NCBI GenBank assembly: GCA_026874595.1
Contig: CM049309.1
Span: 51,992,079-52,056,078 of the forward strand
Direction of reading: 5' to 3'
Length of the DNA: 64,000 nucleotides
Origin: Sipunculus nudus
Taxonomy: Eukaryota > Annelida > Sipuncula > Golfingiida > Sipunculidae
Below, in pieces: positions 2,538 to 53,376 of the stretch. Position numbers and translations under genes: made by a program. Numbering within the stretch: the first letter of the stretch is position 1; every line of letters begins with the position of its first letter. The notes below the pieces were generated by a model, which was not told the origin of the DNA, ran no database searches, and saw only the letters and a list, made by a program, of their open reading frames with translations.

Positions 2538-3557
2538 AGCCCTCAGCCCTTAGACTGATGGGCTATTGTCGTCACCCAAGCTGTCCGTCCGTCCGTCCGG
2601 CGTCTGTTAATTTTTACCTTGTGAGCCGGATATCTTGAAAAGGATTCACCGTCAGAATTTTATTTCCTCGGTAAACATGTTTATCGACAAAATCTCAGTC
2701 AAGTTCGAAGATGGGTGACCTTGACCTATTTTTCTACATTTTAGAGCTGATTATAGAAAAACACTAAGATGCTTATTACTCAGGAACCATTTGGTTGATT
2801 TTCACAAAATTACTGTGATTATTAGGACTGATAGTCTGTACCTGACAACAAGTTTGGTGGCACCACCTACAATTTCTGATTTTTAATGAATTTTTCTTGG
2901 ATTTTTCAACTTTGGACTTGTGAGTGGGATATCTCTAAAAGGATTCACTGTAGGAATTTTCTTTTTTCGGTGAAGATGTATGTTGACTAAATCTCGGTCA
3001 AGTTTGAAGATGGGTGAACTTGACCTATTTTTCTACGTTTTAGAGCTGATTATAGAAAAAACATTTAGAAGCTTATTTCTCAGAAACCATTGGGTGGATT
3101 TTCACAATACTTACTATGATCATAGGGACTGATGGTCTGTAACTGCTGCACAAGTTTGGGGGCGCCACCTACAATTTCTGATTTTTAATGATTTTTTCTT
3201 GGATTTTTCAACTTTGGCCTTGTGAGCAGGATATCTCTAAAAGGATTTACAATAGGAATTTTATTTCTTTGGTGAAGATGTATATTGACAAAATCTCGAT
3301 CAAGTTCGAAGATGGGTGACCTTGACCTACTTTTCAAGGTCACAAAGCTTATAATAGATTAAACTTCGAAGCTTATTTTTCTGGAAGCATTTGGTGGATT
3401 GTTAATAATCATGGTAATAATAATTTTGAATTTATAACTGAGACATGTACAGATATACATCCATGTGAGAAAAGATATTTAGTACTTGTTACTGATACCA
3501 CCTCCAAACACTGTTCTTTTGGCTGAGGGCTTTTGTCAGCTTCTGCTGATATTCTAG
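2538..3557 (+). mobile_element. HB-family Helentron-like element, copy 1
   Basis: 5' end is T|AGCCCTCAGCC with an imperfect hairpin whose second arm is CTGATGGGCT, followed by a (GTCC)n tract. Near the 3' end are GGCTGAGGGCT (inverse of the 5' end, 11 bp), hairpin TCAGC-TTCT-GCTGA, then TATTCTAG|TT. The core is about three tandem units of roughly 300 bp. Each has GGATATCTCTAAAAGGATTC, TGGGTGACCTTGACCT and GGTGGCACCACC-type blocks (unit marks near 2620, 2920 and 3221). There is no ORF. The termini fit non-autonomous Helentron/Helitron2 elements (inference). It is inserted in HD-related sequence. Confidence 0.8.
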
Positions 3558-3883
3558 TTGTACAGGGTCATCAGTGCCTATATCGCACTGAGGGCTACAA
3601 AAAAACTTCTTCTCTGAAACCATATGGCTAAATTGTTGAATATTGCACAGAAATTATCCTAGGACAGTGCTTTCTGAAGTTTGTTCAAATGGTCTCTGTT
3701 CAGTGACTTTTGGCTGAGTTATGGGAAGCTGAATTTAGCCATATGCTTTATAGCCCATTTTAGCTCAGTAGCTACAAAGATCTTCTTCTCAAAAACCATT
3801 GGGCCAAATTCTTAAATCTCACACATTAATTATCCTCAGATGTTGATAATTCAGGTTTGTTCAAATGGTTTTGGTACTTTTTT
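3558..3883 (+). repeat. HD-related host sequence between two HB elements
   Basis: Contains two degenerate versions of the block seen at 2260-2400 and 42595-42730 (ACTTCTTCTC, CAAATTGTTGAATAT, GTTTGTTCAAATGGT, GGCTGAGTTA). It therefore reads as the continuation of the HD element cut by the HB copies on both sides. Confidence 0.55.
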
Positions 3884-5065
3884 AGCCCTCAGCCCTTAGG
3901 CTGATCGGCTATTGTCGTCATCCAAGCTGTCCCTCAGTCTGGCGTCCGTTAACTTTTACCATGTGAGTGGGATATCTCTAAAAGGATTCACTGTAGGAAT
4001 TTTATTTCTTTGCTGAAGATGTATATTGACAAAATCTCGGTAAAGTTCGAAAATGGGTGACCTTGACCTATTTTTCTAAATTTTACAGCTGATTATAGAA
4101 AAACACTTAGAAGTTTATTTCTCAGGAACCATTGGGTGGATTTTCACAAAACTTACTATGGTCATTGGGACTGGTGGTCTGTACTTGCTGCACAAGTTTT
4201 GTGGCGCCATCTACAATTTCTGATTTTTAATGAATTTTTATCAGATTTTTCAACTTGGTCTTGTGAGAGGGATATCTCTAAAAGGATTCACAGTAGGAGT
4301 TATATTTATTCGGTGAAGATGTTTATTGACAAAAACTCGGTCAAGTTCAAAGATGAGTGACCTTGACCTATTTTTCTACGTTTTAGAGCTGATTATAGAA
4401 AAACACCTAGAAGCTTAATTCTCAGAGACCATTGGGTAGATTTTCACAAAACTTACTATGATAATTGGGACTGATGATCTCTATCTGATGCACAAGTTTG
4501 GTGGCACCACCTACTATTTCTGATTTTTAATGAATTTTTATAGGAAATTCAACTTTGGCCTTGTGAGTGGGATATCTCTAAAAGGATTCACCATGGGAAT
4601 TTTATTTCATCGGTGAAGATTTATATTGACAATATCTCAGCCAAGTTCGAAGATGGGTGTCCTTGACCTTTTTTTCTACATTTTAGAGCTGATTATAATA
4701 AAAAACCTTAGAAGCTTAATTTTCAGTGACCATTGGGTGGATTTTCACAAAACTTACTATGTTCATTGGGACTGATGGTCTGTACCTGCTGCACAAGTTT
4801 GGGGGCACTACCTACAATTTCTGATTTTAATGAATTTTTCTTGGATTTTTCAACTTTGGCCTTGTGAGAAGAATATCTCCTAAAAGCATAAGGTGGATTG
4901 TTATGAAACATGGTACATACCTCATCAGTTTAAATTTATAACTGAGACATACACAGTCAGATATACATCCATGAGAGAACAAATATTTTGTACTTGTTAC
5001 TGTTACCACCTATAAACACTGTTCTTTTGGCTGTGGGCTTTTGTCAGCTTCTGCTGATATTCTAG
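3884..5065 (+). mobile_element. HB-family Helentron-like element, copy 2
   Basis: Same termini as copy 1: T|AGCCCTCAGCC, the (slightly altered) GGCTGTGGGCT block, the TCAGC-TTCT-GCTGA hairpin and TATTCTAG|TT. The core has four units of about 300 bp (GTGAG...ATATCTC marks near 3962, 4262, 4563 and 4864), one more than copy 1. The flanking sequence rejoins sensibly as HD-related sequence when the element is removed. There is no coding capacity; open frames inside are repeat-derived. Confidence 0.8.
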
Positions 5066-6577: not shown

Positions 6578-8810
6578 CAGGAAAGATATTTGATCACTTA
6601 ACACAAAACATGTTAAAGCTATGGACTTTTTTTCCAGTAATATAACTTTAATTTATCAAAATTAAATTGTATACCCAAAATTAGATCAAAATCTTTTAAA
6701 TTTTTTAAAATATTAACAAAAATAAAAAATTTGTACCTTAAATTTTGCCCAACTTTGACCATGGCATGTTTTTTTCCTGTAAGTACTGTGGATTTAATTT
6801 TCACAGCATGTTTTTGTTAGCATTTTGTCTGTTAACAACAAAAATTTGAAACCAGTTGATCAAAAACTGTAGATTTTATTCAAGTTTTCAAGCACCATGT
6901 ATCATATTGTTTACATCAAGCTAGTGTTATACAGTTTGCAAGAGCTCAGCTTCCCAGCTTCAGCTCTCAGTTTGCTAAAATTTGGAATACAATTAGATGT
7001 CTCCAAATCCCCTACCATGCCAAGAATTTGGTCACTAGGACTTAATACCTTTGAGATATTAATGAAAAACTTCATTTTTCCATTAAAAACCCATTGTTAC
7101 ACTTCAAGACTGCCTAATATCAAAACCACTGATCTGACTTTAATCATATATAATATACATATTTTTCTGTACATTCGCTATGCACATGCCAGAAATGATG
7201 TCAGTATTGCGTAATTGTTTTAAGTTATGGGCCCAAACATAATGCACTTTGTAAAAAAATCAAGAAATATATTTACTCCCTTAACAAGGGGATTGCTGAA
7301 GCCAGAGATTTTTTGTCAGGGATGTAACATTATTTAATCAAGATTCAATTGAATACCCAAAATTAGTTCTGAATTTTTGAAATTTTATAAGTTATTAGTA
7401 TAAATATAAAATTAGTACCTTAAATTTTGCCCAACTTTGACCATGGCACATTTTTTTCCTGTGAGCACTGTTGATATAATTTTCATATCATGCACACATA
7501 AGGATTTCAGCTTTTTAGTTTAGAAAGCTGGAAGAAATTGGCCAAAAATTGTAGCTTTTATTAATGTTTTTATGAGACCATGTCAGACCTTGGCTCTCTC
7601 CAGCCCCTCTTGAGTCACATGTATGTTGACCTTGTTGAACTTTCAGCATATTATGCATGCTTTCAGCAAATTATGCATGCTTGAGGCGAGGCATACACTT
7701 GGGCAGCCAGGCAGCTTATGGCCAGCCACAGTTGATCCAGGTGTCCAACCCAACCCATCTAGTAGTTTTAACCAACAACATAACAATACAATAAATTAAT
7801 AAGTTTTATTGGTTTTTAATAACAAATTTAAGAAAAATTAATAGAAAAGGAATTTGTTAGTTTATAATAACAGGAAATTAACTTGCAGATACTGATGATA
7901 TAAGAATCTTGTATCGATGGATAGAATGTCACGTATTCCAAATAACACCATGCAGTCACCTATGGTATTTTTCAGTTCACTTTTAATGATAAAAAAGTAA
8001 ATCATATTATTCATTACTAATCATTTGGGATCATATGAAGGAAATTAATGATAGACAAAGATGCAGTTGATAATATTAATCTAGATTCCTACTGTGTCTA
8101 GTGTGTACATTGATGTGAAATTAGTCCAAAATGAATATGTTACATTTATATTTTTTTATATATAAAAACCATAAAACCAGATATTTATGATCATTATTTA
8201 AATGTGTGAATTTTGTAAATTCTGGATTCTCAACATCATTGTTTGTGAAAAATGAATAAATACCAGATATGGTGCAAATTCTTTGCAATTGTATTTAAAC
8301 ACGAATATGAATATGTACTCCATTATAAAATTTCTTGCATAAAGAATGGGAATTCAGGTAAAAATGAAAGTATATGAATACCAGTGCAAATACTTTCAAA
8401 ATGTATTCATGAATATATTCTTTAATATTATTTTAATAATCATTTCAGTTATATTTCATTTTAAAAAATCATACGATTCTCTTATATTTTTTAATAAAAA
8501 TTATATTTGGGACAATATTTGTAATTTTTTTTAATAAATAGTTAAACTCTTATATTATATGTTCTGCTTATAAGTTATATGGCCAAGTCAAAATCTGTGT
8601 GACAATAGTACTCCATTTGTTAATAAAATAAATGAAATCAATCCTGTTCCCTGTCTGCAAAGGTACTATCAAAATCATACATAAGCTAAACAACAACAAC
8701 TCCTAATACAGCTTTATTTATTACCACACAAAACCAGCATGTGCCTCATTCCGAAATCATATTTTTTTATCATATATAACAGCTGAGCGCCGTGACCCAT
8801 AGGTCCCTTG
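6578..8810 (+). mobile_element. HA-family element, copy A (5'-truncated)
   Basis: Matches full HA copies from CAGGAAAGATATTTGATCAC to the 3' end ACAGCTGAGCGCCGTGACCC...CCCTTG|TT, and lacks roughly the first 430 bp. The core has two diverged tandem units about 0.7 kb apart, each with TTGCCCAACTTTGACCATGG (near 6747 and 7428). A single-copy right half follows, with CAGCTTATGGCCAGCCACAG. There is no credible ORF. The 3' palindrome is slightly degraded (GACCCATAGGTC). Confidence 0.85.
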
Positions 8811-9587
8811 TTTATAAAAAGTCAGCTGAAAAGCATTTTGTATTGAGAAAATTTATTTCAATGTTATTTCAAGTCGGGACCACTTTTGTGAACAGATGGC
8901 AGCACTTGGTTTACCACTGGCAGATTGCCAGTGCCTTGATGTTGGCCATTAGCCAAGATGGTGTCAGCTCTATAAATAGTTTTGGCACAGTGCCAGGATT
9001 GGAAGAAGTTCAGTCAGGTATAGGTCAAGGGTTCACTCATTCTATTTATAGCTTTGACAGATTGTCCACTGCATCAGATTTGGCACCAAACGTCAGCCTG
9101 TATCTATTTATAGCTTTGGCAGACTGCCAACTGTGTCAGATTATGCAACAGGTCAAGAGTTCAATCAATGCAGCCAGGTACAGTTCAAAAGTTCACTCAG
9201 TTTAGCTAGGGGTAGGTCAAGAGTTCACTCAGTGTTGTAGCTTGAGCCAGCAATTTGTCACAGATCACTCGGGGGCAACTGCCTTACTCATCTAAGCCTG
9301 GTCAGCCCAGTGCATCAAACTCAAGGGAATATATGTAATTTTTTATGTATATATCTCTTTGTTGTATACAAGACTGGTGGTGCCAGCTACAATCATTTTT
9401 GTGTTGTGTGCACCCATGCCAGAATTTCAGCAGTGATGTTTGTGTAATTGTTTCTTGTTCAAAGTGTTTAGTACTTGAATTATTCATATACATGTTACCC
9501 ATGTTATTGAAAAGTAATGGTCCAGCATTGAAGCATTACACCAGTGTAATCCCATAGCACAGGTTCACATTAGGCCTGTAGGCCTTG
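8811..9587 (+). mobile_element. HD-like 3' fragment with degenerate minisatellite
   Basis: Ends with CACAGGTTCACATTAGGCC-TGTA-GGCCTTG|TT, the HD 3' terminus. The preceding 200 bp resemble the HD core (ACTGGTGGTGCCAGCTAC). Between about 8880 and 9300 there are degenerate direct repeats built on CTATTTATAGCTTTGGCAGA and GGTCAAGAGTTCACTCAG. The open frame over 8792-9205 is repeat-derived and shows no domain. Confidence 0.6.
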
Positions 9588-14347: not shown

Positions 14348-17300
14348 AGCTCAGCTGACTATAAGTCATCTGAGCAATACTAATGGTCCATTGTCCGTCT
14401 TCCGTCCGTCCGTCTGTCCATAGATGAGGCATGTTTTGAAACCGTAAGACCTAGGAATCCAAAATTCGGCATAATGTTAGATGTCCCAAAGATCTCCTAC
14501 CAAGCTGAAAACTGGGTCTTTGTGACTTTGTTCCTTTGAGAAATTAAGGAAAAACCTCAATTTTTTTTAGCTCAGCTGACTTTCAGTCATGCTGGGCTAT
14601 AGCGATGGGTCTTTGTCCGTTGTCCTTCCGTCTGTCCGTCCGGACGGATGGCCGGCCATCCGTCCATTAGCAGGGCACAAATTGTAACCATAGGGGCTAG
14701 GGCCATGAACCCTATGCAGTCTTAGAGGTTCTAAAAAGATCTCCTTGCAAGCCTGAAATTAGGTCACTGTGACCTATATTCTCGAAGTTATGTGTTTGCA
14801 CCCCCCCCATAAATAATTCTTTTAGCCAAAATTTTCATCCCAAACCTTACATCTTTCACATACAGCTCACCTACCAACAGGGGAAGAACCATAATTATTT
14901 TGAGGTCACAAGGTCAAAGGTCAAGGTAACAGAACCAACTTCTTTGAAAAGCCTGTGGATGCATTTTAAGCCAAACCTTTCATCCCAATTCTTTGATCTT
15001 TCACATATAGCTCACCTACTAAGTGGGAGAAGAATCCTATAGATGTTGAGGTCACAAGGTCAAAGGTCAGGGTCACAGGATCCACCTTTTGAAAAGGTTG
15101 TGGACACATTTCAAGCTAGACCTTTCATTCCAAACCTTTCAGCACTGATATCGCTTCTCTGCCAACAGGGGAAAAGACCTGTTGATTTTGAGGTCAAAGG
15201 TCAAGTTCACAGCACCCTCTTCTTGCGTGGAGTCATTTTCAGGCAAACTTTTCAATCTATACTTTCCATCTGTCATATATGGCTTACCTACCAATAGGGG
15301 AAGAAGCCTATTGATGTTGAGTTCAAAAGGTCAAAGGTCAAGGTCACAATATTGTTCTAAATGCTTGTGAACATATTTCAAGTGAAACTGTTCAACCCAA
15401 ACCTTCAGTCTTTCACATATGCCACATCTATGCATCACTGAATGTGATTCAAACTTCATATTTATGGGTCTTTTTGCATGAAGAAATAACTAATGTTGAG
15501 GTCAGCTGGTCAGGAGGTTAAAGGTTGCAGGTCTAAGTTATTCACTCATCAGTTGCCAAGTAATTACACCCGGCCAGATGTAATTGGTTAGTAGTTACCC
15601 ATCATTTAGAAAGAATCCAGTTGATATGTGGGCAAAAGGCCAAGGTCATAGGTCAGGTCAACTTATTTTGTAGACCATCTCTATTTTTCTTGTATATATA
15701 AGCTTGCACTCCAGCTGGTACATCTCACCGTGTGGCTGTAATTGTGAGTGACACTGGTGACATATGACTCCCTTTTGTATCAGGCTATTAAGTGATAAGG
15801 CTGAGTGATAAGTACCTCGTTACTGCATAACAAAACACTGTTGTTGGAATACTTCAGCCAGGAATTAACACTATGAGAGTATAGTATTAAGGTTTAGCTA
15901 CTGATTTATAAGATGATGGGAACATTTTGCAGTTTATATCATGGAATCATAGCAATAAACTTAGTTTCCTTGATATCTGAATATTTTTATATAAATCACC
16001 ACATATAAAAGCAAGTGTTTGTTCTCATAATATGTGGATGTGTACTTGATTTAGGATGGCTTTATTTTATTACAAGACTCTTAGTCATGCTTTCTGCATT
16101 TCTTTTCTTTCAGGTTTTGCAGTTTACCAACCCTGCTGACCCCATTGAAAAGCAGAATGATAATAAAAAATATTGGACTTACACTTTTACATTTGCATAT
16201 CTATAAATCTGATATGAGCGCCTGAACATGCCTTTTGAATTGTTTTGGACATTCATTACTGTAACATCATTTGGAGAATTTGCCCCAAGTTTGGTCTCTT
16301 ATTGGAGGATGTGTGATATTAAATGTCAGACTTGTCAGAAATCCATTATGTCTGCCAGTTAGCCACCTTAGAAATCCTTTTTTCAGTGCAGTTTCAGTAA
16401 TTTTCCTTCAATTTTTGGTCTGATTTAGAGAATGGTTGTTGTCTGATTTCAGACCTGTCAGAAGTCCAAAATGGCCACCAGGCAACCATCTTTAAATTCC
16501 TTTTGATCATATTATCTCAAGAACTGTTAAAGTGAAGGCAGTCGGACGTATATTAATGTAATCTTGCAAAGGATTGGGTCAAATATTTCTTAATAAATAT
16601 TATCATCATATATGAAAATGCAGTACAGTTGGCTAGTATTGAATAAAAATTCATACAGAAGCACCTGTTTCTCAATAATTCTTGCATGGATTTTCTTGAT
16701 ATTTTGCTATATATTTTGATCTTATATTTGCCCTTTGTGGTGTTCCTTTTGAGACTGACAGGTATCAAGTAAGCTATGGGAATAGTTCTGGATACCTGAA
16801 CAATCAAACATTTTCCTCAGACCATCAATTCATTGTGTTTTAACCAGACATAGGTGATATATATTTCTGTAGTCGTAGAAAATTTCGGCAAATTGGTTCT
16901 TCAAAATTTGACTGGAAGTTGTGAATCTCAGCCCATGATATCGCAGGTCATGCTTGGCAGCTGAGCGTCATGACCCATGGGTCACTTGTTAAAATCCTAT
17001 TTTAACACTTCAGGACTGCCTTAAATCAAAACTACTCATCTGTTTTTCCTCATATTTACCATGAATATTCCCCTATATAGTTTCTATGTACATGCTAGAA
17101 ATTATGTCTGTATTATATAATTTAAAAAAGTTATAGGCCCAAACATAATGCATTTTGTAAAAAATCAGAAAAGATATTTGATCACTTAACACAAAACATG
17201 TTAAAGCTATGGACTTTTTTCCCAGTAATATAACTTTAATTAATCAAAATTAAATTGTATACAAAAAATTAGATTAAAATCTTTTAAATTTTTTTAAATA

Positions 17301-37724: not shown

Positions 37725-37733
37725 GCAAGGAAG

Positions 37734-37928
37734 ATAAGCCAGAGCTTTGCAAATGGCTTTTGCAACAAATGGCCTTTCTGTCTCCACATATATGCAACCT
37801 ACCGCCTTAGGTTACATGTTTTTCCTGTTTGTCAGCATTGCTGTTTATAAACACGTTGTTGATAAACAAGTTCATACAGCCTTCACAGAGGCATATCAAG
37901 AACTTTTCACAACCAGAATTACCCTTAG

Positions 37929-37974
<46 letters not shown>

Positions 37975-38058
37975 GAGGAAGCCAAAAATTACATAAATTC
38001 TTTTTCAACTGGTAGGTAAATTTGCACCTTTAATTAAAAATACTGACATATACTTGTT
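37734..38058 (+). other. duplicated unique sequence with (AT)n, no gene assigned
   Basis: Part of the inverted duplication. A frame opening near 37747 (MQMAFATNGLSVSTYMQPTA...) runs through hydrophobic residues into the (AT)19 tract. The right-arm version has indels and substitutions in it, and no homology is recognised, so I do not call a gene. Confidence 0.4.
37932..37969. repeat. (AT)19 microsatellite, left-arm allele
   Basis: Pure AT tract preceded by CTTAGATC and followed by GCACAGAGGAAGCC. The same microsatellite in the right arm (48593-48666) is about twice as long. Confidence 0.95.
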
Positions 38059-41000
38059 AGCTCAGCTGACTATAAGCCTTTGTCCGTCGGCTGTCCGTCC
38101 GTCCGTTAAACTGGCATGTTTTGAAACCGTAAGACCTAGGAATCCAAAATTTGGCATAATGTTAGATGTCCCCAAGATCTCCTACCATGCCGAAATCTGG
38201 GTCTTTGCGACTTCGTTCCTTTGAGAAATTAAGGAAAAACCTCAATTTTTTATTAAAAACCTATTTTCACACTTCAGGACTGCCTAATATCAAAACCACT
38301 CATCTGTTTTTCCTCATATTTACCATAAATATTTCTGTATATAGTTCCTATGTACATGCCAGAAATTAGGTCTGTATTATATAATTTAAAAAAGTTATGT
38401 ACCCAAACATAATGCATTCTGTAAAAAATTAGGAAAGATATTTGATCACTTAACACAAAACATGTTAAGGCTAAGGACTTTTTTTCCAGTAATATAACTT
38501 TAATTAATAAAAATTAAATTTTATACCCAAAAATTGGTACCTTAAATTTTGCCCAACTTTGACCATGGCACATTTTTTTCCCGTAACTGCTGTGGATTTA
38601 ATTTTCACAACATGTTTTTTTTTAGCATTTCATCTGTTAACACTAAAAATTTGAAACCAGTTGATCAAAAACTGTAGATTTTATTCAAGTTTTCAAGCAC
38701 CATGTCACATATTATTTACATCAAGCTAGTGTAATGCAGCTCAGCTCCCCAGCTTCAGCTCTCAGTTCCTAAAATTTGACATACAGTTAGATGTCTCCGA
38801 AATCCCATACCATGCTAAGAATTTGGTCACAAGGACTTAATTCCTTTTAGATATTAATGAAAAACTTTATTTTTCCATTAAAAACCCATTGTTACACAAG
38901 ACTGCCTAATTTCAAAACCACTGATCTGACTTTGATCATATTTAATATACATATTTTTCTATTCATTCGCTATGCACATGCAAGAAATGATGTCAGTATT
39001 GCGTAATTGTTTTAAGTTTTGGGCCCAAACATAATGCACTTTATAAAAAATCAAGAAATTGATTTACTCCCTTAACAAGACGATTGCTGAAGCTAGAGAT
39101 TTTTGGTCAGGGATGTAACATTATTTAATCAAGATTCAATTGAATACCCAAAATTAGTTCTGAATTTTTCAAATTTTGTAAGTTATTAGTATAAATATAA
39201 AATTAGTACCTTAAATTTTGCCCAACTTTGACCATGGCACGTTTATTTCCTGTGAGCACTGTTGATATAATTTTCATATCATGCATACATAAGGATTTCA
39301 GCTTTTTAGTTTAGAAAGCTGAAAGAAAATGGCCAAAAATTGTAGCTTTTATTTATGTTTTTATGAGACAATGTCAGAACCAGGCTCTCCAAACCCCCTC
39401 TTCAGTCACCTGTATGTTGACCTTATTGACCTTTCAGCAAATTATGCTTACTTGAGGGAGGCATATACTGGGGCAGCCAGGCAGCTTATGGCCAGCCACA
39501 GTTGATCAAGGTGTCCAACCCAACTTATCTAGTAGTTGTTTTGAATTTTTATTGGTTTTTAATAACAATATAAGGAAAAATTACAGAAAAAAAAATAGAA
39601 AAGGAATTTGTTAGTTGTTGAGTAACAGGAAATTAACGTGCAGTTACTGATGATGTAAGAATCTTGTATGGATGGATAGAATGTCAAGTATTCCAAATAA
39701 CACCATGCAGTCACCTATGGTATTTTTCAGTTCAATCTTTTAATGATAACAAAAATAAATCATATAATTCATTACTAATCATTAGGGATCATATGAAGGA
39801 AATTAATGATAGACAAAGATACAGTTGATAATATTAATCTAGATTCCTACTGTGTCTAGTGTGTAGATTGATGTGAAAGTAGTCCAAAGTGAATATATTA
39901 CATTTATTTTTTTAATATAAATAAAAGCCATAAAACCAGGTACTTATGATCATTATTTAAATTTGTGAATTTTGTATATTCTGGATTCTCAACATCATTG
40001 TTTGGCTAAAACTGAATAAATACAAGACATGGTGCAAATACTTTGCAAATGTATTTGAATACGAATATGAATCATTATAAAATTTCTTGCATAAGAATGG
40101 GAATTCAAGTAAAAATTAAAGTATTTGAATACCAGTGCAAATACTTTCAAAATGTATTCATGAATGCATTCATGAATATATTCTATAATATAATTTTTAT
40201 GATCATTTCAGTTTTATTTCATTAAAAAAAAAACATGATTCTCTTATTATTTTTAATAAAATTATATTTGGCACAATATTTGTTATTAAACTTTAATAAA
40301 TAGTTAAACTCTTATATTATATGTGCTGCTTATAAGTTATATGGCCAAGTCAAAATCTGTGTGACAATAGCACTCCATTTATCAATAAAATAAATGAAAT
40401 CAATCCTTTTCCTTGTCTCCAAAGATACTATCAAAATCATACATAAGCTAAACACCAACAACTCATAATAAAGCTTTTATTTATTACCACACAAAACCAG
40501 CATGTGCCTCATTTCCAAATCATATTTTTATGCCCCCGCCACAAAGTGGCCGGGGCATATAGTTTTACCTATGTCCGTCATTCCGTCCTTCCGTCCTTCG
40601 GAAATCAAACAGTTGTACGGACTTTTTTTCGCAATGCCTGCAGATATTGGCCTGATTTTCGGTGTGGGCAGATAATGACCAGTTACAGATCAAGTTCGCG
40701 TTTCGTCCCAGTTTACCTACCTTTGACCGTTTTACGGGTCCTAAACTTAGAAAATTTTATGAAAAATAGAAATTTTCATGATAAATACACATGTACAGAC
40801 TTTTTTTTGCAATGCCTGCAGATATTGGCCTGATTTTTGGTGTGTAGGCAGATAATGACCAGTTACAGATCAAGTTCGCGTTTCGTCCCAGTTGACCTAC
40901 TTTTGACCGTTTTACAGCTCCTAAACTTAGAAAATTTCATGAAAAATAGAAATTTTCATGACAAATACACATGTACGGACTTTATTTCGCAATGCCTGCA

Positions 41001-41951
41001 GATATTGGCCTGATTTTTGGTGTGTGGGCAGATAATGACCAGTTACAGATCAAGTTCGCGTTTCGTCCCAGTTTACCTACCTTTGACCGTTTTACGGGTC
41101 CTAAACTTAGAAAATTTTATGAAAAATAGAAATTTTCATGATAAATACACATGTACAGACTTTTTTTTGCAATGCCTGCAGATATTGGCCTGATTTTTGG
41201 TGTGTTGGCAGATAATGACCAGTTACAGATCAAGTTCGCGTTTCATCCCAGTTGACCTACTTTTGACCGTTTTACAGCTCCTAAACTTAGAAAATTTCAT
41301 GAAAAATAGAAATTTTCATGACAAATACACATGTACGGACTTTATTTCGCAATGCCTGCAGATATTGGCCTGATTTTTGGTGTGTGGGCAGATAATGACC
41401 AGTTACAGATCGAGTTTGCGTTTCTTACCAGTTGACCTACCTTTGACCCTTTTACAGGTCCTAAACTAAGAAAATTTTATGAAAAATAGAAATTTTCATG
41501 ACAAATACACATGTACGGACTTTATTTTGCAATGCCTGCAGATATTGGCCTGATTTTCGGTGTGTGGGCAGATATTAACCAGTTACAGATCGAGTTTGCG
41601 TTTCGTCCCAGTTGACCTACTTTTGACTGTTTTACGGCTCCTGAACAAAGAAAATTTCATGAAAAATATAAATTTTCATGACAAATACACATGTATGGGT
41701 TTTTTTTCACAATGCCTGCAGATACTGGCCTGATTTTTGGTGTGTTGCTTGATAATCACCCGTTACAGATCAAGTTTGCATTGTGCCCTTGTTGACCTAC
41801 TTTTGACTATACGACACCTCCTGAACTTAAACAATTTTTCAAAATTAAACAAATGTTTCTAATTTGCCCCAGGCGGGGGCATTCGTGTCGTTCCGACACA
41901 TCTAGTTTTATCATATATAACAGCTGAGCGCCGTGACCCATGGGTCCCTTG
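38059..41951 (+). mobile_element. HA-family element, copy D, with nested HC element
   Basis: Starts ACTTGTT|AGCTCAGCTGAC with a shortened 5' hairpin region (the CATCTGAGCT arm is missing here). It carries the two core units and the single-copy right half, and ends CAGCTGAGCGCCGTGACCCA then TGGGTCCCTTG|TT. It is interrupted at 40530-41905 by an HC element. Without that, its length is about 2.5 kb. The matching right arm of the inverted duplication reads CATACTTGTTGTAAATTAAA, uninterrupted, which defines the insertion point exactly. Confidence 0.9.
40530..41905 (+). mobile_element. HC-family Helentron-like element with 180-bp tandem core
   Basis: The 5' end T|ATGCCCCCGCCACAAAGTGG...GGGGCAT forms a 29-nt hairpin: 7 bp, one C.C mismatch, 5 bp, AAA loop. 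Near the 3' end are GGCGGGGGCA (inverse of the 5' end, 10 bp), hairpin GTGTCG-TTC-CGACAC and ATCTAG|TT. Between them are about seven units of exactly 180 bp (near 40621, 40801, 40981, 41161, 41341, 41521, 41701), each with GCAATGCCTGCAGATATTGG. No Rep-helicase is encoded. It is inserted in the T run near the 3' end of HA copy D. Tandem-repeat cores between conserved ends are known in bivalve pearl-type elements. Confidence 0.9.
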
Positions 41952-42368
41952 TTGTAAATTAAAGTAATATGTAATCTGATGGTATTTTTATTATGTTTAT
42001 CTTCCTGTAATTCAAAATCTAAATCTTTTACTTGAAGTTCTTTTACTAGTATATAGTCAATGAAGGCCTATGCATTTCTTAATGTAATTGTTTCAAAGAA
42101 CAGTTTAACTCAAATCTCCAGTGCTGCCATTTTGAAATTTTCATGTATTTTTCCTTTTTATATCATGGGCCTTCTGTTTCTTGAGGGGGCAGGTGGACTT
42201 GTAAAAGGGATGAATTGAATCAATCTGGTAAAATAAGGAGTTGTAATTTGAAAAAAAATTACATTTACAAAACAAAATGACAAAAAATGTTAATTTGGTA
42301 ATTCATCAGCTATGGGCCAGATTTTAAACAATTCTTCCATTTAGGTTGCAGCAAGAAATACAATTTTT

Positions 42369-44538
42369 AGCGAACCTGTGAGCTTATGCCCTGGTGCAGC
42401 GTCGTCTGTTGTGCGTTGTGTCGTGCGTCATCTGTACGTTAACCATAGCTATCTCAAAAATGGCAGGAGCTAGCATCACCAAATTTTTTGAAAATAAACA
42501 GTCATCTGAAAACCTCTTTCAGATTTTGTTTATTTTTTTTCTAACTGCATTTTTTGAGTTTTTATAGGGAAAAAGCTTAATAAGCTTTAAAAATCTTCTT
42601 CTCCGAAACTGTCCAGCCAAATTGTCCAATATTTTACAAAATGATCCCTGGAACAATCTTTCTCAAGTTTGTTGGAATGGTTCCAGTTTGGAGATTTTTG
42701 GCCAAGTTTTGGAGGTTGAACTTACTCATCTGTCCAAAAGCACACTAAAATTAAAATCTAAGAAACGGCTAGAGCTATCATCACCAAATTTTATACCAAT
42801 GTTTGTCACATATGTCATATCTGAAATTGAGGTATTGGTGGCGCCACCTACATTGATCTGTTTTTTTAAAGGCGAAAATGTAATTTTAGATGCTTCTAGC
42901 TTATACACTGTTTATGATGAAACTGTTAAGCTGATTGGTTTAAACTTTACGAGAATTATTCTATGGTAGGGTTCTGTCAGTTTTATAAGAATAGATTGGG
43001 TAAATGCAGCTTTATAAAAGCAGTGTAGCCAATTGAAAAAGGCTTTTTGTGTTTGAAAACAGATTTGACAACATGCTCAGTTTCAGCAGCCAAGTCAAGA
43101 GGTCACTCAGTACAACCAGGTGGGGTCCAGACATCACCATGGCAACTGACCTGGCTCTGTCTGGTGTCAAGACAATGTGTCTAGATGTCTAGACACAGCA
43201 TCTAGACTTCTAGACACAATGTCTAGATGCAGAATTCCCAGATTATTGGAAATATATCTTTCAGCTGTTTGAAAAAACTTGGTTTGCATTTTAAGTGAAT
43301 CGGGTTTATCTTCAGGTCACATGTGAAATGCTGCGCCCTCATTTTTGGTTGACCTCTGACCTTTTCTTCACTGCCCAGCATCCATTTGTACATCTGTTAC
43401 CACACATAAACCGACATATCTCGGGAACCGCTTGACTGATCAGGCTAAAAATTTTGCACAAATGTAGCCCTTTGATAGCTTTATAACATACACTAAGATT
43501 GGTAGCGCCACCTGCAACCATTTTTGCACAGCCTCCATCTGTTCATCTGCCTTGGGATAAAATCACTCATATCTCTGCATTGGTTGGACATATCCTCCTG
43601 AAATTTTGCATGTGTATACATCCTGGATATTTTTCTTGATTTTTATGACAGGTGGCGCCATCTACATTCACATTAAGACTACAGACATCCAAGCTCATAT
43701 CACTGAAACTGTCTCACCGATTGGGCCAACATTTTGCACATATATAGATCTCACATAGCTCTTTGTCATACTCAAAACTGGTGGTGCCACCTGCAAACAT
43801 TTTTGCACAGCATCCATCTGTTCATGTGCCTTGGGATAATATCACTCATATTTCAGCAATAATTTGACTTATCCACCTGAAATTTTGCAAGTTTATACAT
43901 CCTGGACAGCTTTCTCAATTTTATGACAGGTGGCGACACCTACATTCACGTTACTCTGCAGAAAACCAAGCTCATATCTCGGGAACCGTTTGACTGATTG
44001 GGTAAAAATTTTGCATGTGTATAGATCGCATAAAGTGCTTCATCATACACAAAACTGGTGGCCCAACATGCAACCATTTATGCACAGTGTCCATCTGATC
44101 ATCTGCCTTGGGATAAAACCACTCATATCTAGGCAGTGGTTTGATTTACCCACCTGAAATTTTGAAGGTTTAAACATCCTGGACAGCTTCCTTGATTTTA
44201 TGACAGATGGCACCACCTACATTCATGTTTACACTGCAGACATCCATGCTAATATACAACACACCTCACTCTATTCCCCTTGCCACTTAATCCATGTTTC
44301 ACTTCACCTGTCCCACTCTGATTTTGGCAGATACACGTAGTCGCTTGTCAACTATCCGTATTCTAGTTTTAAAACGTCTGAGTCTGAAACTTGCAGGTCC
44401 GAAATGTCCATTTTGCTGAAATCATAATGACTAAGGTAGATATGCAGGATGTAAGAGGATCAATATTGAATTTTAAAAATAAACCTCCATTCATACTCCC
44501 AAATTTTGCACAGGTTCGCATTAGGCCTGTAGGCCTTG
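42369..44538 (+). mobile_element. HD-family element, full copy
   Basis: Starts T|AGCGAACCTGTGAGCTTATG and ends GCACAGGTTCGCATTAGGCC-TGTA-GGCCTTG|TT. GCGAACCTGTG and CACAGGTTCGC are perfect 11-bp inverted partners near the two ends, and AGGCC-TGTA-GGCCT is the 3' hairpin. The 5' third is single-copy. 43330-44500 holds tandem units of about 278 bp (GCCTCCATCTGTTCATCTGC-type words near 43530, 43808 and 44085). TAGACAxxxTGTCTAGA words cluster near 43165-43230. A 115-codon frame at 42622-42969 is not conserved in the other HD copies and is not called as a gene. Confidence 0.85.
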
Positions 44539-44543
44539 TTTTT

Positions 44544-44945
44544 GAATAAATACAGGCAGTAATTATTGCAAAAACAACTTTGATGTTTTGAAACAGGCCT
44601 ATCACCATATGGATTTACCAACTAAACAAAATGATGAATTTCATGCTATTTTCAACCTTTTTCCAATTAGTTTTGATGTATTTTTGTGAATAAATGCAGA
44701 CAGTAAATATTGCAAAAACAACTTTGAAGTTTTGCAACAGGCCTAATCACCATATGGATTTACCAACTAAACAAAATGATGAATTTCAAGCTATTTTCAA
44801 CCTTTTTCCAATTAGTTTTCATGTATTTTTGTGAATAAATGCAGAGAGTAAATATTGCAAATATAACTTTGAAGTTTTGCAACAGGCCTAATCACCATAT
44901 GGATTTAACAACTAAACAAGATGATGAATTTCAAGCTGTTTATTC
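44544..44945. repeat. tandem repeat, 144-145 bp unit, 2.8 copies
   Basis: Units start at 44544, 44688 and 44833 with GAATAAAT(A/G)CAG(G/A). Each contains CACCATATGGATTTA, CCAACTAAACAAAATGATG and ATTTTCAACCTTTTTCCAAT. The array begins only five bases beyond the HD 3' end. Confidence 0.9.
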
Positions 44946-46060: not shown

Positions 46061-48078
46061 CAGGGGACCTATTGGTCACGGCGCTCAGCTGTTATATATG
46101 ATAAAAAATATGATTTAGAAATGATTAACAAATGAAGTACTATTGTCACACAGATTTTGACTTGGCCAAATAACTTATAAGCAGAACATATAATATAAGA
46201 GTTTAACTATTTATTAAAAAAAATTACAAATATGTAATATATTCATTTTGGACTAATTTCACATCAATGTACACACTAGACACAGTAGGAATCTAGATTA
46301 ATATTATCAACTGCATCTTTGTCTATCATTAATTTCCTTCATATGATCCCTAATTATTAGTAATGACTAATATGATTTACTTTTTTATCATAAAAAAATG
46401 AACTGAAAAATACTGCATGGTGTTATTTGGAATATGTGACATTCTATCCATTAATACAAGATTCTTATATCATTAGTAACTGCAAGTTAATTTCCTGTTA
46501 TTATAAACTAACAAATTCCTTTTCTATTTTTCTTTAATTTGTTATTAAAAACCAAAAAAAATTATTAATTTATTGTTTATTATTATGTTGTTGGTTAAAA
46601 CTACTAGATGAGCATGCATAATTTGCTGAAAGTTCAACAAGGTCAACATACAGGTGACTCAAGAGGTGCTACAGAGAGCCAAGGTCTGATATGGTCTCAT
46701 AAAAACATTAATAAAAACTACAATTTTTGGCCAATTTCTTTCAGCTTTTTAAACTAAAAAGCTTAAATCTTTATGTGTGCATGATATGAAAATTATATCA
46801 ACAGTGCTCACAGGAAACAAACATGCCATGGTCAAAGTTGGGCAAAATTTAAGGTACTAATTTTATATTTATACTAATAACTTATTAAATTTGAAAAATT
46901 CAGAACTAATTTTGGGTATTCAATTGAATCTTGATTAAATAATGTTACATCCCTGACGAAAAATCTCTAGCTTCAGCAATCCTCTTGTTAAGTGATCAAA
47001 TATATTTCTTGATTTTTTACAAAGTGCATTATGTTTGGGCCCATAACTTAAAACAATTACGCAATACTGACATCATTTCTGGCATGTGCATAGAGAATGT
47101 ATAGAAAAATATGTATATTATATATGATTAAAGTCTGATCAGTGGTTTTGATATTAGGCAGTCTTGAAGTGTAACAATGGGTTTTTAATGGAAAAATGAA
47201 GTTTTTCATTAATATCTCGAAGGTATTAAGTCCTAGTGACCAAATTCTTGGCATGGTAGGGGATTTTTGAGACATCTAATTGCATGCAAAATTTTAGGAA
47301 CTGAGAGCTGAATCTGGGGAGCTGAGCACTTGCAAACTGCATGACACTAGCTTGATGTAAACAATGTTACATGGTGCTTGAAAACTTGAATAAAATCTAC
47401 AGTTTTTGATCAACTGGTTTCACATTTTTGGTGTTTACAGACAAAATGCTAAAAAAAAATGCTGTGAAAATTAAATCCACAGTACTTACAGGAAAAAAAC
47501 ATGCCATGGTCAAAGCTGGGCAAAATTTAAGGTACCAATTTTTTATTTTTGTTAATATTTTAAAAAATTTAAAAGATTTTGATCTAATTTTGGATATACA
47601 ATTTAATTTTGATTAACTGGAAAAAAAGTTTATAGCTTTAACATATTTTGTGTTAAGTGATCAAATATCTTTCCTGATTTTTTTCACAATGCATTATGTT
47701 TGGGCCCATAACTTTTTAAATTTACATAATACAAACATAATTTCTGGCATGTACATAGGAACTATATAGAGGAATAATTATCGTAAATATGAGGAAAAAC
47801 AGATGAGTGGTTTTGATATTAGGCAGTGCTGAAGTGTAAAAATAGGTTTTTAATAAAAATTTGAGGTTTTTCCTTAATTTCTAAAAGGAAGGAAGTCGCA
47901 AAGACCCAGTTTTCGGCTTGGTAGGAGATCTTGGGGACATCTAACATTACGCCGAATTTTGGATTCCTAGGTCTTACGGTTTCAAAACGTGCCACATCTA
48001 AGGACGGACGGACAGACGGACGGCACGACGGACAATGGACCACGACTATAGCTCAGATGACTTATAGTCAGCTAAGCT
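46061..48078 (-). mobile_element. HA-family element, copy E (internally deleted, minus strand)
   Basis: Reverse-complement HA. The 3' end CAGGGGACCTATTGGTCACG is at 46061 and the 5' hairpin (AGTCAGCTAAGCT) is at 48078. At 2.0 kb it is about 0.6 kb shorter than copy C, with gaps near 46125 and 46225 in the right half. Both core units are retained (TTTGACCATGG words at about 46825 and 47505). The 5' end abuts the inner edge of the right arm of the inverted duplication. Confidence 0.85.
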
Positions 48079-48587
48079 AAAAATTGTATATCTTGCTGCA
48101 ACCCACTTGGCACATGAAAGAATTGTTTAAAATCTGGCCGACGTCTGATGAATTACCAAATTAACATTTTTTGTCATTTTGTTTTGAGAATGTAATTTTT
48201 TCAAATTTCAACACCTTATTTTACATGATTGTAGATTGATTCAATTCATCCTTATTACAAGTCCCTCTGCCCCCTCAACAAACAGAAGGCCCAAGATATA
48301 AAAAGGAAAAATACATGAAGAGTTCAAAATGGCAGCACTGGAGATTTGAGTTAAACTGTTCTTTGAAACAATTACATTAAGAAATGCATAGGCCTTCATT
48401 GACTATATACTAGTAAAAGAACTTCAAGTAAAAGATTTAAATTTTGAATTACAGGAAGATAAACATAGTACAAATACCATCAGATTACATATTACTTTAA
48501 TTTACAACAAGTATGTCAGTATTTTTAATTTAAGGTGCAAATTTACCTACCATTTGAAAAAGAATTTATGTAATTTTTGGCTTCCTC

Positions 48588-48669
<82 letters not shown>

Positions 48670-49271
48670 CTAAGGGTAATTCTAGTTGTGAAAAGTTCTT
48701 AATATGCCGCTGTGAAGGTTGTATGAACTTGTTTATCAACGTGTTTATAAACAGCAATGCTGACAAACAGGAAAAACATGTAACCTAAGGCGGTAGGTTG
48801 CATATATGTGGAGACAGAAAGGCCATTTGTTGCAAAAGCCATTTGCAAAGCTCTGGCTTATCTTCCTTGCCACCAGATGCCCTTGTTGAATTGGTTTTAA
48901 TCATTTTGGCAGGCCCCCAACATATTATAAACACGTTTATATAAACAAAACAAGCAGCCTGTGTGCAGTGATATTCAAATTTTCTGGCCTATTTTTAGGG
49001 ATTATCTTTAGTTTATAAAGGTCAGATAGGTGATTAGGCTCCTTTAACATGCATACTTGGTTGATCTACTGAAGACACAACAGTTTAATTTATCTTGACA
49101 TTTAATTAAGTAATGTTTTTACTTTATTTATTAGAATTTAATCCTTTAGTTTAGAATTTAAAATTTTCTACTTAAAATGTTACCTTAAACCTCCACTCAT
49201 GAAATTCCTTATACACTAACACTGATGACATCACTCTGTACCTTGTCTGATTGGTGTAGTAATTACCATAG
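48079..49271 (-). repeat. inverted duplication, right arm (lacks the left-arm insertions)
   Basis: Reverse complement of the left arm without the 0.7-kb insert, HA copy D or the HC element. In reverse complement, GACATACTTGTTGTAAATTA is the empty site of copy D, and GGTGGCAAGGAAGATAAGCC is the empty site of the 0.7-kb insert. Small substitutions, 3-bp indels and a longer (AT)n tract distinguish it from the left arm. It contains no supported gene, but transcripts from the exon at 49389-49697 would end inside its outer edge. Confidence 0.9.
48593..48666. repeat. (AT)37 microsatellite, right-arm allele
   Basis: Same locus as 37932-37969 on the other arm of the inverted duplication, expanded to about twice the length. 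Confidence 0.95.
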
Positions 49272-49272
49272 C

Positions 49273-49278
49273 TTTATT
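49273..49278 (-). promoter_or_regulatory. candidate polyadenylation signal AATAAA (minus strand)
   Basis: TTTATT on +, AATAAA on minus, about 110 bases downstream of the stop of the minus-strand exon 49389-49697. It is two bases outside the breakpoint of the inverted duplication, so the cleavage site would fall inside the duplicated arm. Confidence 0.4.
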
Positions 49279-49739: not shown

Positions 49740-49960
49740 GCATGGCCATGCTGACTTTCACAGTACTGTGCACACTGCACAGCTGGTATATCAGCTGATT
49801 TTGTACACTGCACAGCTGATCTGACCCATGTGTACATCACACAGGGCAGGCTAAATTCACACTAAAGTCAGAATATGGAGAATGAGGCCATCAGCTGGTT
49901 AAGTCCAGAGTAGACCTACTTGTACAAGTTGCAATAATATCTGGCTAACTTTCTTGAAAA
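49740..49960. other. minus-strand intron or intergenic, nothing else recognised
   Basis: Short direct repeat CTGCACAGCTG(G/A)T near 49775 and 49806. No gene. Confidence 0.4.
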
Positions 49961-51507
49961 CTAGATGTGTCGGAACGACACGAATGCCCTCGCCTTGGGC
50001 AAATTAGAAACATTTGTAAAATTTGGAAAATTTTTTAAGTTCAGGAGGTGTCGTATGGTCAAAAGTAGGTCAACAAGGGCAAAATGCAAACTCGATCTGT
50101 AACGGGTCATTATCAAGCAACACACCAAAAATCATGCCAGTATATGCAGGCATTGTGAAATAAAGTCCATACATGTGCATTTTCCATAAAAATTTCTGTC
50201 TTTAATGAAATTTTCTATGTTTAGGATCCGTAAAACAATCAAAAGTAGGTCAACCGGGATGAAACGCAAACTCAATCTGTAACTGTCATTATCTGCCCAC
50301 ACAAAAAAAATCAGGGTGGTATCTGCAGGCATTGAGGAAAAAAAGTCAGTACATATGCATTTGTTATGAAAATTTATATTTTTCATGAAACTTTCTATGT
50401 TCAGGAGCAGTCAAATGGTCAAAAGTAGGTCAACTGAGACAAAACAAGAACTCGATCTGTAACTGGTCATTATCTGCCTACACACCAAAAATCAGGCCCA
50501 TATCTGCAGGCACTGCGAAAAAAAGTCCATACATGTGCACCTATTTATGAAACTTTCTATGTTAGAGCACCGTCAAACGGTCAAAAATAGGTCAACTGGG
50601 ACAAAACGTGAACTTGATCTGTAACTAGTCTATATCTGCCCACACACCAAAAATCAGGCCAATATCTGCAGGTATTGTGAAGAAAAGTCTGTACAAGTGT
50701 ATTTGTCATGAAAATATATATTTTACATGAAATTTTCTATGTTCAGGAGCCGTAAAACAGTCAAAAGTAGGTCAACTGGGACGAAACGCGAACTCGATCT
50801 GTAACTGGTCTATATCTGCCCACACACCAAAAATTAGGCCAATATCTGCAGGCATTGCGACAAAAATTCTGTACATGTGTATTTGTCATGAAATTTCATA
50901 TTTTTCATGAAATTTTCTATGTTCAGGAGCAGTAAAATGGTCAAAAGTAGGTCAACCAGGACGAAACGCAAACTCAATCTGTAACTGGTCTATATCTACT
51001 CACACACCAAAAATCAGGCCAATATCTGCAGGCATTGCGAAAAAAAGTCTGTACATGTGTATCTGTCATGAATATTTCTATTTGTCATGAAAATTTCTAA
51101 GTTTAGGAGCCATAAAGCGGTCAAAAGTAGGTCAACCGGGACGAAACGCGAACTCAATCTGTAACTGGTCTATATCTGTCCACACACCAAAAATCAGGCC
51201 AATATCTGCAGGCACTGCGAAAAAAAGTCCGTACATGTGTATCTGTCATGAATATTTCTATTTTTCATGAAATTTTCTAAGTTTAGGAGCCGTAAAACGG
51301 TCAAAAGTAGGTCAACTGGGACGAAACGCGAACTCGATCTGTAACTGGTCTATATCTGCCCACACACCAAAAATCAGGCCAATATCTGCAGGCATTGCGA
51401 AAAAAAGTCCGTACAACTGTTTCATTTCGGAATGACGGAAGGACAGAAGGACGGAATGACGGACATGGGTAAAACTATATGCCCCGGCCACTTTGTGGTG
51501 GGGGCAT
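49961..51507 (-). mobile_element. HC-family element, minus strand, 8 units
   Basis: Reverse-complement HC with both ends. CTAGATGTGTCGGAACGACA at 49961 is the 3' hairpin end, and GGCCACTTTGTGGTGGGGGC|AT to 51507 is the 5' hairpin. About eight units of 180 bp (one about 165 bp because of a deletion near 50545) carry AATATCTGCAGGCATTG (marks near 50322, 50502, 50664, 50844, 51024, 51204, 51384). Flanking AA on the left and AAA on the right agree with T|T insertion on the minus strand. Frames on either strand are periodic artefacts because 180 is divisible by three. Confidence 0.9.
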
Positions 51508-53376
51508 AAAAAAGTCAGTACATATGCATTTGTTATGAAAATTTATATTTTTCATGAAACTTTCTATGTTCAGGAGCAGTCAAATGGTCAAAAGTAGGTC
51601 AACTGAGACAAAACAAGAACTCAATCTGTTACTGGTCATTATCTGCCTACACACCAAAAATCAGGCCCGTATCTGCAGGCACTGCAAAAAAAAGTCCATA
51701 CATGTGCACCTTTTTATGAAATTATCTATGTTAGAGCACCGTCAAACGGTCAAAATAGGTCAACTGGAACAAAACGTGAACTTGATCTGTAACTGGTCAT
51801 TATCTGCCAACACACCAAAAATCAGGCCAATTTCTGCAGGCATTGTGAAGAAAAGTCTGTACAAGTGTATTTGCCATGAAAATATATATTTTACATGAAA
51901 TTTTCTATGTTCAGGAGCCATAAAACAGTCAAAAGTAGGTCAACTGGGACGAAATGCCAACTTCATCTGTAACTGGTCAATATCTGCCAACACACAAAAA
52001 ATCAGGCCAATATCTGCAGGCATTGCGAAAAAAAGTCCGTACATGTGTATTTGTCATGAAATTTCATATTTTTCATGAAATTTTCTATGTTCAGGAGCTG
52101 TAAAACCGTCAAAGAAGGTCAACTGGGATGAAACGCGAACTCGATCTGTAACTGGTCTTTATCTGCCCACACACCAAAATTCAGGCCAATATCTGCAGGC
52201 ATTGCGAAAAAAAGTCCGTACATGTGTATCTGTCATGAATATTTCTATTTTTCATGAAAATTTCTAAGTTTAGGAGCCGTAAAACGGTCAAAAGTAGGTC
52301 AACCGGGACGAAACGCGAACTCAATCTGTAACTGGTCTATATCTGCCCACACACCAAAAATCAGGCCAATATCTGCAGGCACTGCGAAAAAAAGTCCGTA
52401 CATGTGTATTTGTCATGAAATTTCATATTTTTCATGAAATTTTCTATGTTCAGGAGCCGTATAAGTCAAAAGTAGGTCAACCAGGACGAAATGCGAACTC
52501 GATCTGTAACTGGTCTATATCTGCTCACACACCAAAAATCAGGCCAATATCTGCAGGCATTGCGAAAAAAAGTCCGTACATGTGTATCTGTCATGAATAT
52601 TTCTATTTTTCATGAAATTTTCTAAGTTTAGGAGCCGTAAAACAGTCAAAAGTAGGTCAACTGTGACGAAACGCGAACTCGATCTGTAACTGGTCTATAT
52701 ATGCCCACACACCAAAAATCAGGCCAATATCTGCAGGCGTTGTGAAAAAAAGTCTGTACAAGTGTATTTGTCATGAAAATATATATTTTACATGAAATTT
52801 TCTATGTTCAGGAGCTGTAAAACCGTCAAAAGAAGGTCAAGTGGGACGAAACGCCAACTCCATCTGTAACTGGTCTATATCTGTCCACACTCCAAAAATC
52901 AGGCCAATATCTGCAGGCACTGCGAAAAAAAGTCCGTACATGTGTATTTGTCATGAAATTTCATATTTTTCATGAAATTTTCTATGTTCAGGAGCCGTAA
53001 AACGGTCAAAAGTAGGTCAACCAGGACGAAACGCGAACTCGATCTGTAACTGGTCTATATCTGCTCACACACCAAAAATCAGGCCAATATCTGCAGGCAT
53101 TGCGAAAAAAAGTCCGTACATGTGTATCTGTCATGAATATTTCTATTTTTCATGAAATTTTCTAAGTTTAGGAGCCGTAAAACAGTCAAAAGTAGGTCAA
53201 CCGGGACGAAACGCGAACTTGATCTGTAACTGGTCTATATATGCCCACACACCAAAAATCAGGCCAATATCTGCAGGCATTGTGAAAAAAAGTCCGTACA
53301 ACTGTTTGATTTCGGAATGACGGAATGACGGACATGGGTAAAACTATATGCCACGGCCACTTTGTGGCGGGGGCAT
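51508..53376 (-). mobile_element. second HC array sharing the same 3' end (duplication), minus strand
   Basis: Directly abuts the previous 5' hairpin. It starts with a unit (AAGTCAGTACATATGCATTT) almost identical to the one beginning near 50343, and the following units match in the same order for several hundred bases. It has about ten units, then its own 5' hairpin (GGCCACTTTGTGGCGGGGGC|AT) ending at 53376, but no CTAG 3' terminus of its own. It looks like a tandem duplication or rolling-circle read-through product rather than an independent element. Confidence 0.85.

Follow-up and report, generated by a model that had tools for sequence, protein, structure and literature searches.

The locus described here raises the question of why repeat families that differ in sequence should end alike. 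The stretch of DNA analysed, referred to below as the window, comprises 64,000 nucleotides of Sipunculus nudus (assembly GCA_026874595.1, contig CM049309.1, positions 51,992,079 to 52,056,078 of the forward strand). A preliminary description of it had named four motifs as the starts of four unrelated repeat families with one common terminal design, and had suggested that such ends are read by Helentron/Helitron2 machinery as structure and not as sequence. The motifs were found at the places given for them, and HA, HB, HC and HD, as the families are called here, are indeed four repeat families with sharp ends; a fifth element, HE, had been missed. The terminal observation on HA, HB, HC and HD is real. 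All five are very probably gene-less elements of the Helitron2/Helentron kind (HINEs) that are moved in trans by a Rep-helicase encoded elsewhere; a reading of their ends by structure only is a conjecture.

The window is eukaryotic in character, with a G+C content of 32-38% in 4-kb steps, and no open reading frame (ORF) of 150 amino acids beginning with ATG, GTG or TTG was found in its whole length. Self-comparison and a tandem-repeat search revealed long repeat families behind the motifs, with lengths of ~2.6 kb for HA, 1.0-1.2 kb for HB, 1.4 kb for HC and 2.2 kb for HD. Tandem units of ~300 bp are present in HB, of 180 bp in HC, of 277 bp in HD and of 145 bp in HE, while HA shows, in self-comparison, two diverged halves only. 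A microsatellite of the GTCC type lies 3' of the 5' hairpin in HA, HB, HC and HE. Presumably the elements resemble molluscan repeats, a likeness for which the published anatomy of the oyster elements is the sole support. The copies in the window are the following, with asymmetric inverted repeats abbreviated as ATIRs:

20655 to 23279, plus strand: full HA copy; 5' hairpin at 20655-20683, GTCC microsatellite at 20700-20760, 3' ATIR at 23249-23257, end CTTG followed by TT
57140 to 59736, minus strand: full HA copy; 5' end at 59736
46061 to 48078, minus strand: HA copy, internally shortened; 5' end at 48078, end CCTG followed by TT, adjoining repeat X
38059 to 41951, plus strand: HA copy with the 5' hairpin deleted; split by HC at 40530-41905 and lying in repeat X
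14348 to 19269, plus strand: HA copy split by HE at 14569-16988
6578 to 8810, plus strand: HA copy without its 5' end
14569 to 16988, plus strand: HE, the fifth element; shares 5' arm and 3' end with HA, 30-nt 5' hairpin with a bulged T at position 22
2538 to 3557, plus strand: HB copy 1; 27-nt 5' hairpin, tandem units of ~300 bp, end CTAG followed by TT
3884 to 5065, plus strand: HB copy 2 (HB2), lying in an HD-like unit
40530 to 41905, plus strand: full HC copy in the 3' end of HA; 29-nt 5' hairpin at 40530-40558, 180-bp tandem units, end CTAG followed by TT
49961 to 53376, minus strand: HC composite; 5' ends at 53376 and 51507, single 3' end at 49961
42369 to 44538, plus strand: full HD copy; ATIR at 42370-42380 and 44509-44519, 277-bp tandem units, end CTTG followed by TT
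2049 to 2522, plus strand: 5' part of HD, 15 bases upstream of HB copy 1
1 to 462, plus strand: 3' part of HD, truncated by the start of the window
9557 to 9587, plus strand: 3' end of a third HD copy

HE, nested in the HA copy at 14348-19269, has the 5' arm in common with HA and ~31 nt of near-identical 3' end; its interior has no match in HA, and the 3' arm of its hairpin differs. In the HC composite on the minus strand (49961-53376), the inner 5' end (51507) falls within a run of T inside a tandem unit. This arrangement could reflect either a nested insertion part of which was subsequently lost or a rolling-circle tandem whose inner copy is truncated at its 3' end; tandems of the latter kind have been reported for Helitrons (PMC7492417).

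The ends were read against their flanks at 13 5' ends (HA 5, HB 2, HC 3, HD 2, HE 1) and 14 3' ends (HA 6, HE 1, HB 2, HC 2, HD 3). The first base is an A after at least two T in 13/13 5' ends, and after at least five T in 12 of them; TT stands next to all 14 3' ends, and the terminus is CT(A/T)G in 13, the exception being one HA copy with CCTG. The start in A after a T run and the CT(A/T)G end before TT had both been claimed for these families, and both stand. The CTAG termini of HB and HC, which alone fit CTRR, together with a 3' stem close to the end, might suggest canonical Helitron1 elements. That class has next to no chance of being the right one: the 5' end is not TC, the target is TT and not AT, HA, HD and HE end in CTTG, and an ATIR is present in addition to a 5' hairpin in 4/5 elements. 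We rejected canonical Helitron1 on its defining ends, given the 5' A after T and the TT target.

Each family also carries an inverted pair placed asymmetrically. The 5' ATIR occupies positions 2-10 in HA and HE, 1-11 in HB and HC and 2-12 in HD, so that its length is 9 bp in HA and HE and 11 bp in HB, HC and HD; pairs of 9-11 bp were thus present in all families as described, except that the HC pair, at 11, is one longer than had been stated. In all five reference copies the ATIR starts 0-1 nt inside the 5' end, and its 3' copy stops 19-26 nt short of the 3' end (HD 19). Of the 12 pairings between copies in which both ends could be read, 8 show a perfect ATIR. As a control across families, the complements of a family's own ends were found to extend over 9-11 nt in 5/5 families, compared with 3-7 nt for foreign ends; HA and HE, which have an arm in common, are the exception. 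In addition, a search for a T-run start, an exact ATIR, a 3' stem and CT(A/T)G before TT retrieved seven 5' sites in the window and 0-2 in each of 20 Markov sequences. Five of the seven are true ends, namely those of HB copy 1, HC (40530) and HD (42369) and the HA-type starts at 14348 and 14569, the last of which revealed HE; the other two are unrelated sites paired with HA or HE 3' ends. Because it required a 5-bp stem and an exact ATIR, the search overlooked several true copies.

Folding was performed with DNA parameters against shuffled controls (500 for 5' ends, 300 for 3' stretches); one folded HA 5' end (HA48081) had two flanking T in front. The 5' hairpins of HA, HE, HB and HC beat nearly all shuffles in 10/10 copies (0-5 of 500 folding as low), two of the ten being identical. 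In HA and HC the hairpin spans 29 nt with 7 bp, a mismatch, 5 bp and a 3-nt loop, or 8, 1, 5 and 3 over 31 nt when the flanking T-A pair is counted. The identical layout that had been described for these two families is exact in the reference copies, but the full hairpin is intact in only 2/5 HA copies, a third keeping it with one G-T, a fourth lacking the outermost pair and a fifth having it deleted, and in 1/3 HC copies. Nor are the hairpins confined to two families: HB has one of 27 nt, laid out as 5-bulge-6-4 (with one C-A within the 6 in copy 1), and HE one of 30 nt, laid out as 8-bulge-5-3. The ATIR, the T-run start and the 3' stem are present in all elements, and the 5' hairpin in all but HD, which has none above shuffles.

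Stems of 4-6 bp are present near the 3' end in all five elements, in HA, HB, HC and HD at the 2-8 nt previously given; the folds of this stretch, which take in the ATIR plus the stem, clearly surpass the shuffles in HB and HC alone (0-7/300). At 41865-41882, the 3' ATIR of HC is also able to pair with TGCCCC just upstream, so that both HC ends have local hairpins able to swap partners.

For 11 elements, the two flanks were joined and the construct was compared with the window. An uninterrupted relative, or empty site, was found for 4/11: for HE and for HC within HA, for HA (38059) within repeat X and for HB2 within an HD-like unit, the last at ~73% identity. The repeat X site is the following:

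48630 to 48358: uninterrupted paralogue of the repeat X in which HA (38059) is inserted

Where HC sits in HA there are nine T; among five HA copies that are uninterrupted there, four have seven T and one has six. HA in repeat X shows two T above its empty site, and at HE in HA there is one extra base and the target A is missing. In the four empty-site comparisons no duplication longer than TT was found, and a duplicated TT is indistinguishable from T borne by the element. The two extra T at HC in HA (against four of the five empty copies) and at HA in repeat X could also be taken as the 2-bp TT target duplication of cut-and-paste elements similar to miniature inverted-repeat transposable elements (MITEs). 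However, the inverted repeats are asymmetric in 5/5 elements, at the distances given above, a 5' hairpin and a 3' stem are not known as features of MITEs, and the HE site, with its one extra base, lacks the target A. Pearl, a bivalve element, was originally called a MITE (PMC7492417). The extra T are equally well explained by an element-borne terminal T, as published for Helentrons, in which the target is TT and the terminal T is part of the element (PMC4067079). Cut-and-paste movement is thus very improbable in our judgement, and the insertion sites, which are T-rich and show at most TT duplicated, agree with the Helentron description (PMC4067079).

Assignment to the Helitron2/Helentron family can be made with high confidence. 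The ATIRs, the 5' hairpin formed with the ATIR, the 3' stem, the TT target, the GTCC microsatellite and the tandem arrays all match published descriptions (PMC3627910, PMC4067079, PMC7492417, PMC5148889), which supports ends of the Helentron/Helitron2 type, as had been proposed. Among the features that define such elements, an ATIR, a 3' stem-loop and insertion at TT or a T run occur in all five, a 5' hairpin in four (not HD), the microsatellite in HA, HB, HC and HE, and central tandem units in HB, HC, HD and HE. We infer that they move by a single-stranded rolling-circle process driven by an HUH Rep-helicase. As catalogue entries they are ordinary, since elements of this kind are already known from oysters, mites and flies as well as from algae and fungi; they are reported as abundant in oyster and Drosophila.

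The closest descriptions differ in detail. The account of Cg_HINE of Crassostrea gigas (PMC7492417), which we compared by description only, gives a 5' subterminal inverted repeat (subTIR) of 11-12 bp with a complementary inverted repeat (IR) of 7-12 bp 1-12 nt away, a microsatellite (GTCY, GTCC, GTCK), central tandem repeats, a 3' subTIR plus a palindrome, T-rich or TT insertion with no target-site duplication (TSD) found, unrelated flanks among families and no link to an autonomous partner; unlike here, most of its elements have one subTIR mismatch, and HD here has no clear IR. The Helitron2 elements of Bao and Jurka (2013; PMC3627910) likewise have a hairpin at either end and ATIRs of 8-15 bp, with the 5' ATIR inside the 5' hairpin and the 3' ATIR just upstream of the 3' hairpin, and Helitron-1N1_CRe has a T-run target, but those families include autonomous elements, which were not seen here. 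Helentron, HINE and DINE-1 elements (PMC4067079) have subTIRs, an IR nested with the 5' subTIR, a 3' stem-loop, a TT target, variable terminal T and a microsatellite, although in the mite elements the subTIRs are 2-4 nt away from the 5' terminus and 38-60 nt away from the 3' one, compared with 0-1 and 19-26 nt here. Two points weigh against the classification or the trans mobilization that goes with it. First, in three Chlamydomonas Helitron2 families TSDs of 7-19 bp are described (PMC3627910), and such duplications are absent here. Second, no autonomous partner was seen in the window among the ORFs scanned, which are 10 of the 43 stop-to-stop ORFs listed for it. In favour of gene-less elements, these 10, all of which lie within an element or overlap one, gave no Pfam match above the curated cut-off (the one weak match had an E of 0.29). 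In addition, ARAGORN found no tRNA, and Rfam returned no family at gathering score.

We then considered whether the ends are read by structure. From one family to another the pairing persists although the letters change, and this is the real support for structure. Within families, the pairs were counted in 4/5 HA 5' copies (38059, with its hairpin deleted, being left out), three HC and two HB copies, HE not being included: 6/35 pairs vary, five of them broken in one copy and one kept as G-T, and 0/35 are changed on both sides, so the covariation proposed as a check does not appear among the window copies. The copies are few and seem to be decaying freely. Scans of outside sequence were limited to exact matches in virus and prokaryote collections and therefore supplied no external covariation set: the HC 5'-hairpin pattern had no exact match in a viral contig collection, nor had the HA and HB 5' patterns or the HC tandem-unit pattern in viral contigs. 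Three exact matches to the HC 5' hairpin in a genome contig collection were all bacterial, lacked a microsatellite after the hairpin and were taken as chance; one of the contigs (L001) codes for bacterial proteins, the other two being judged at the match alone, and in another (L003) the motif occurs a second time, inverted.

The letters are not free of common elements, either. ATWG right after the hairpin, TGTCCGT, and CTWG before TT at the 3' end recur in HA, HB, HC and HE. When the 26-nt stretches after the hairpin were compared, 5-66 of 300 shuffles reached the score (six pairs); for the hairpin sequences, HA/HE apart, 42-294 of 300 did so (nine pairs). The assertion that the ends are structure-read and not sequence-read is accordingly not borne out as it stands: no pair changed on both sides, HD lacks the hairpin, HA and HE share letters, and motifs recur. 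One ancestral end with exchanged interiors, instead of a protein reading structure, has almost an even chance. The 5' arm and ~31 nt of 3' end common to HA and HE, whose interiors differ, suggest it, as do the motifs ATWG and TGTCCGT and the post-hairpin scores; however, beyond HA/HE the hairpin sequences are no more alike than shuffles, so that under common descent the pairing would have been kept while the letters changed. Common descent and structure reading can both be true. A published precedent for similar hairpins with differing letters is provided by FoHeli1 and FoHeli2 of Fusarium oxysporum (PMC5148889), which have similar short hairpins (GAA loop) with partly different stem letters, but stems of ~5 bp, autonomous members and a target between TNAT and T.

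The identical HA/HC geometry, which had been offered as evidence of structure reading, is not improbable. The window contains 25 singly interrupted hairpins of at least 11 Watson-Crick pairs, among which G+C reaches at least 35% in 4 only, namely three HA and one HC 5' ends, HB and HE not being in that list; 4.7% of the pairs among the 25 (related copies included) share a layout. At 4.7% per pair and with six family pairs, a layout common to two families carries little weight as evidence. A coincidence of imperfect 29-nt hairpins is therefore a real possibility, if somewhat short of even, and the differing layouts of HB and HE fit with it. Two observations stand against it: the presence of hairpins at the 5' ends is beyond chance, and an odd base recurs at position 22, in the hairpin 3' arm, across three different layouts (T, T, C and T in the reference copies of HA, HB, HC and HE).

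In each reference copy the 5' arm also forms an uninterrupted duplex with the 3' ATIR. Calculated with DNA parameters for the ATIR alone, as short naked DNA free of protein, which limits their weight, the energies of the ATIR duplex and the hairpin are -11.6 vs -9.6 kcal/mol in HA, -11.6 vs -9.2 in HE, -15.5 vs -6.4 in HB, -17.0 vs -12.1 in HC and -14.6 vs -1.8 in HD. The duplex is thus predicted to be the stronger in 5/5 elements, by 2.0 (HA) to 12.8 kcal/mol (HD), and the order is the same with side pairs counted (HA, HE and HC duplexes). Such values are compatible with a switch of partners. On the displaced strand, the 5' arm would fold into the imperfect hairpin; once the 3' end is reached, the same arm would pair without interruption with the 3' ATIR beside the 3' stem; and this pairing could bring the ends together and mark the stop. 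We propose this role of the ends tentatively, and rate it at somewhat less than an even chance. It is the switch of Bao and Jurka (2013), in whose proposal the 5' hairpin is disrupted when the ATIRs pair, which fixes the endpoint; compensatory changes are reported there for two Culex elements (PMC3627910). In the published passages considered here, end recognition and the replication stop of Helitron2/Helentron elements rest on sequence inference, with one experiment, on joined ends of a Fusarium element.

What our reference copies may add to the published switch, possibly for the first time, is that the faulty partner would be the hairpin's own 3' arm, at position 22, in four hairpin families; in the published passages considered, no discussion of the position of the hairpin fault was found. 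One might go further and suppose that Helentron-type 5' hairpins are built faulty, with an unpaired base 21 nt from the cleavage junction that has a dual role, the layout being kept over the letters. We regard this as unlikely. In one role, the HUH Rep domain would recognize the odd base in the way in which T17 of IS608 or the bulge of repetitive extragenic palindromic (REP) sequences is recognized; in the other, it would be a weak point at which the 3' ATIR, as the gap-free partner, displaces the hairpin, whereupon replication would end. Layout, not letters, would be kept among families. IS608 TnpA and TnpA_REP (PMC8266576, PMC5934647) are HUH enzymes whose imperfect DNA hairpins carry an unpaired base or a bulge that the protein contacts. 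Such faults are read, namely T17, which is unpaired in IS608, and the bulge of REP; repair to a regular REP stem eliminated activity (PMC8266576). Unlike the machinery considered here, they are bacterial Y1 enzymes, and one group also uses perfect-palindrome REPs. The parallel with position 22 is an inference by analogy.

Several observations count against the switch and the faulty hairpin. First, HD (42369) has no 5' hairpin better than shuffles (314/500 as low), and its second copy shows a weak 5' fold (folded without shuffles); because HD lacks the hairpin, the switch is not general as drawn. Second, the 3' stretches of HA, HE and HD are folded as well by 50-95 of 300 shuffles. Third, the ATIR carries mismatches in 4/12 pairings (HA48078 one, HB2 one, the HC composite one or two by the 5' end used). 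Fourth, the bases predicted to be unpaired in mutated copies are 21 and 24 in HC53376, 21 and 22 in HC51507, and 22 and 23 in HB3884. Finally, the position-22 pattern concerns three independent families and was noticed afterwards; our guess, uncomputed, is that its chance is a few percent. Five co-resident elements, four of them with hairpins, form a compact set for the position-22 fault and the ATIR switch.

Other repeats lie around these elements. Repeat X is present in two copies, one at 36626-38058 and 41953-42368 (plus strand) and the other at 48079-49274 (minus strand), which are 87-94% identical in their matched parts, 37050-37721 having no match. At the same T run of repeat X (ATACAATTTT), HD follows in one copy and HA in the other, and the right-hand sides are dissimilar; considering repeat X as a possible further element, we compared its right part after HD with that after HA and found no match. 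Adjoining repeat X, ~19 copies of a 50-bp unit occupy 35608-36576, and a 145-bp tandem array at 44539-44941 starts immediately 3' of the HD end. Outside the repeats, an exon-like stretch at 28667-28753 reads SCTICLTEFEEEEDVR, which may resemble the start of a RING-H2 domain.

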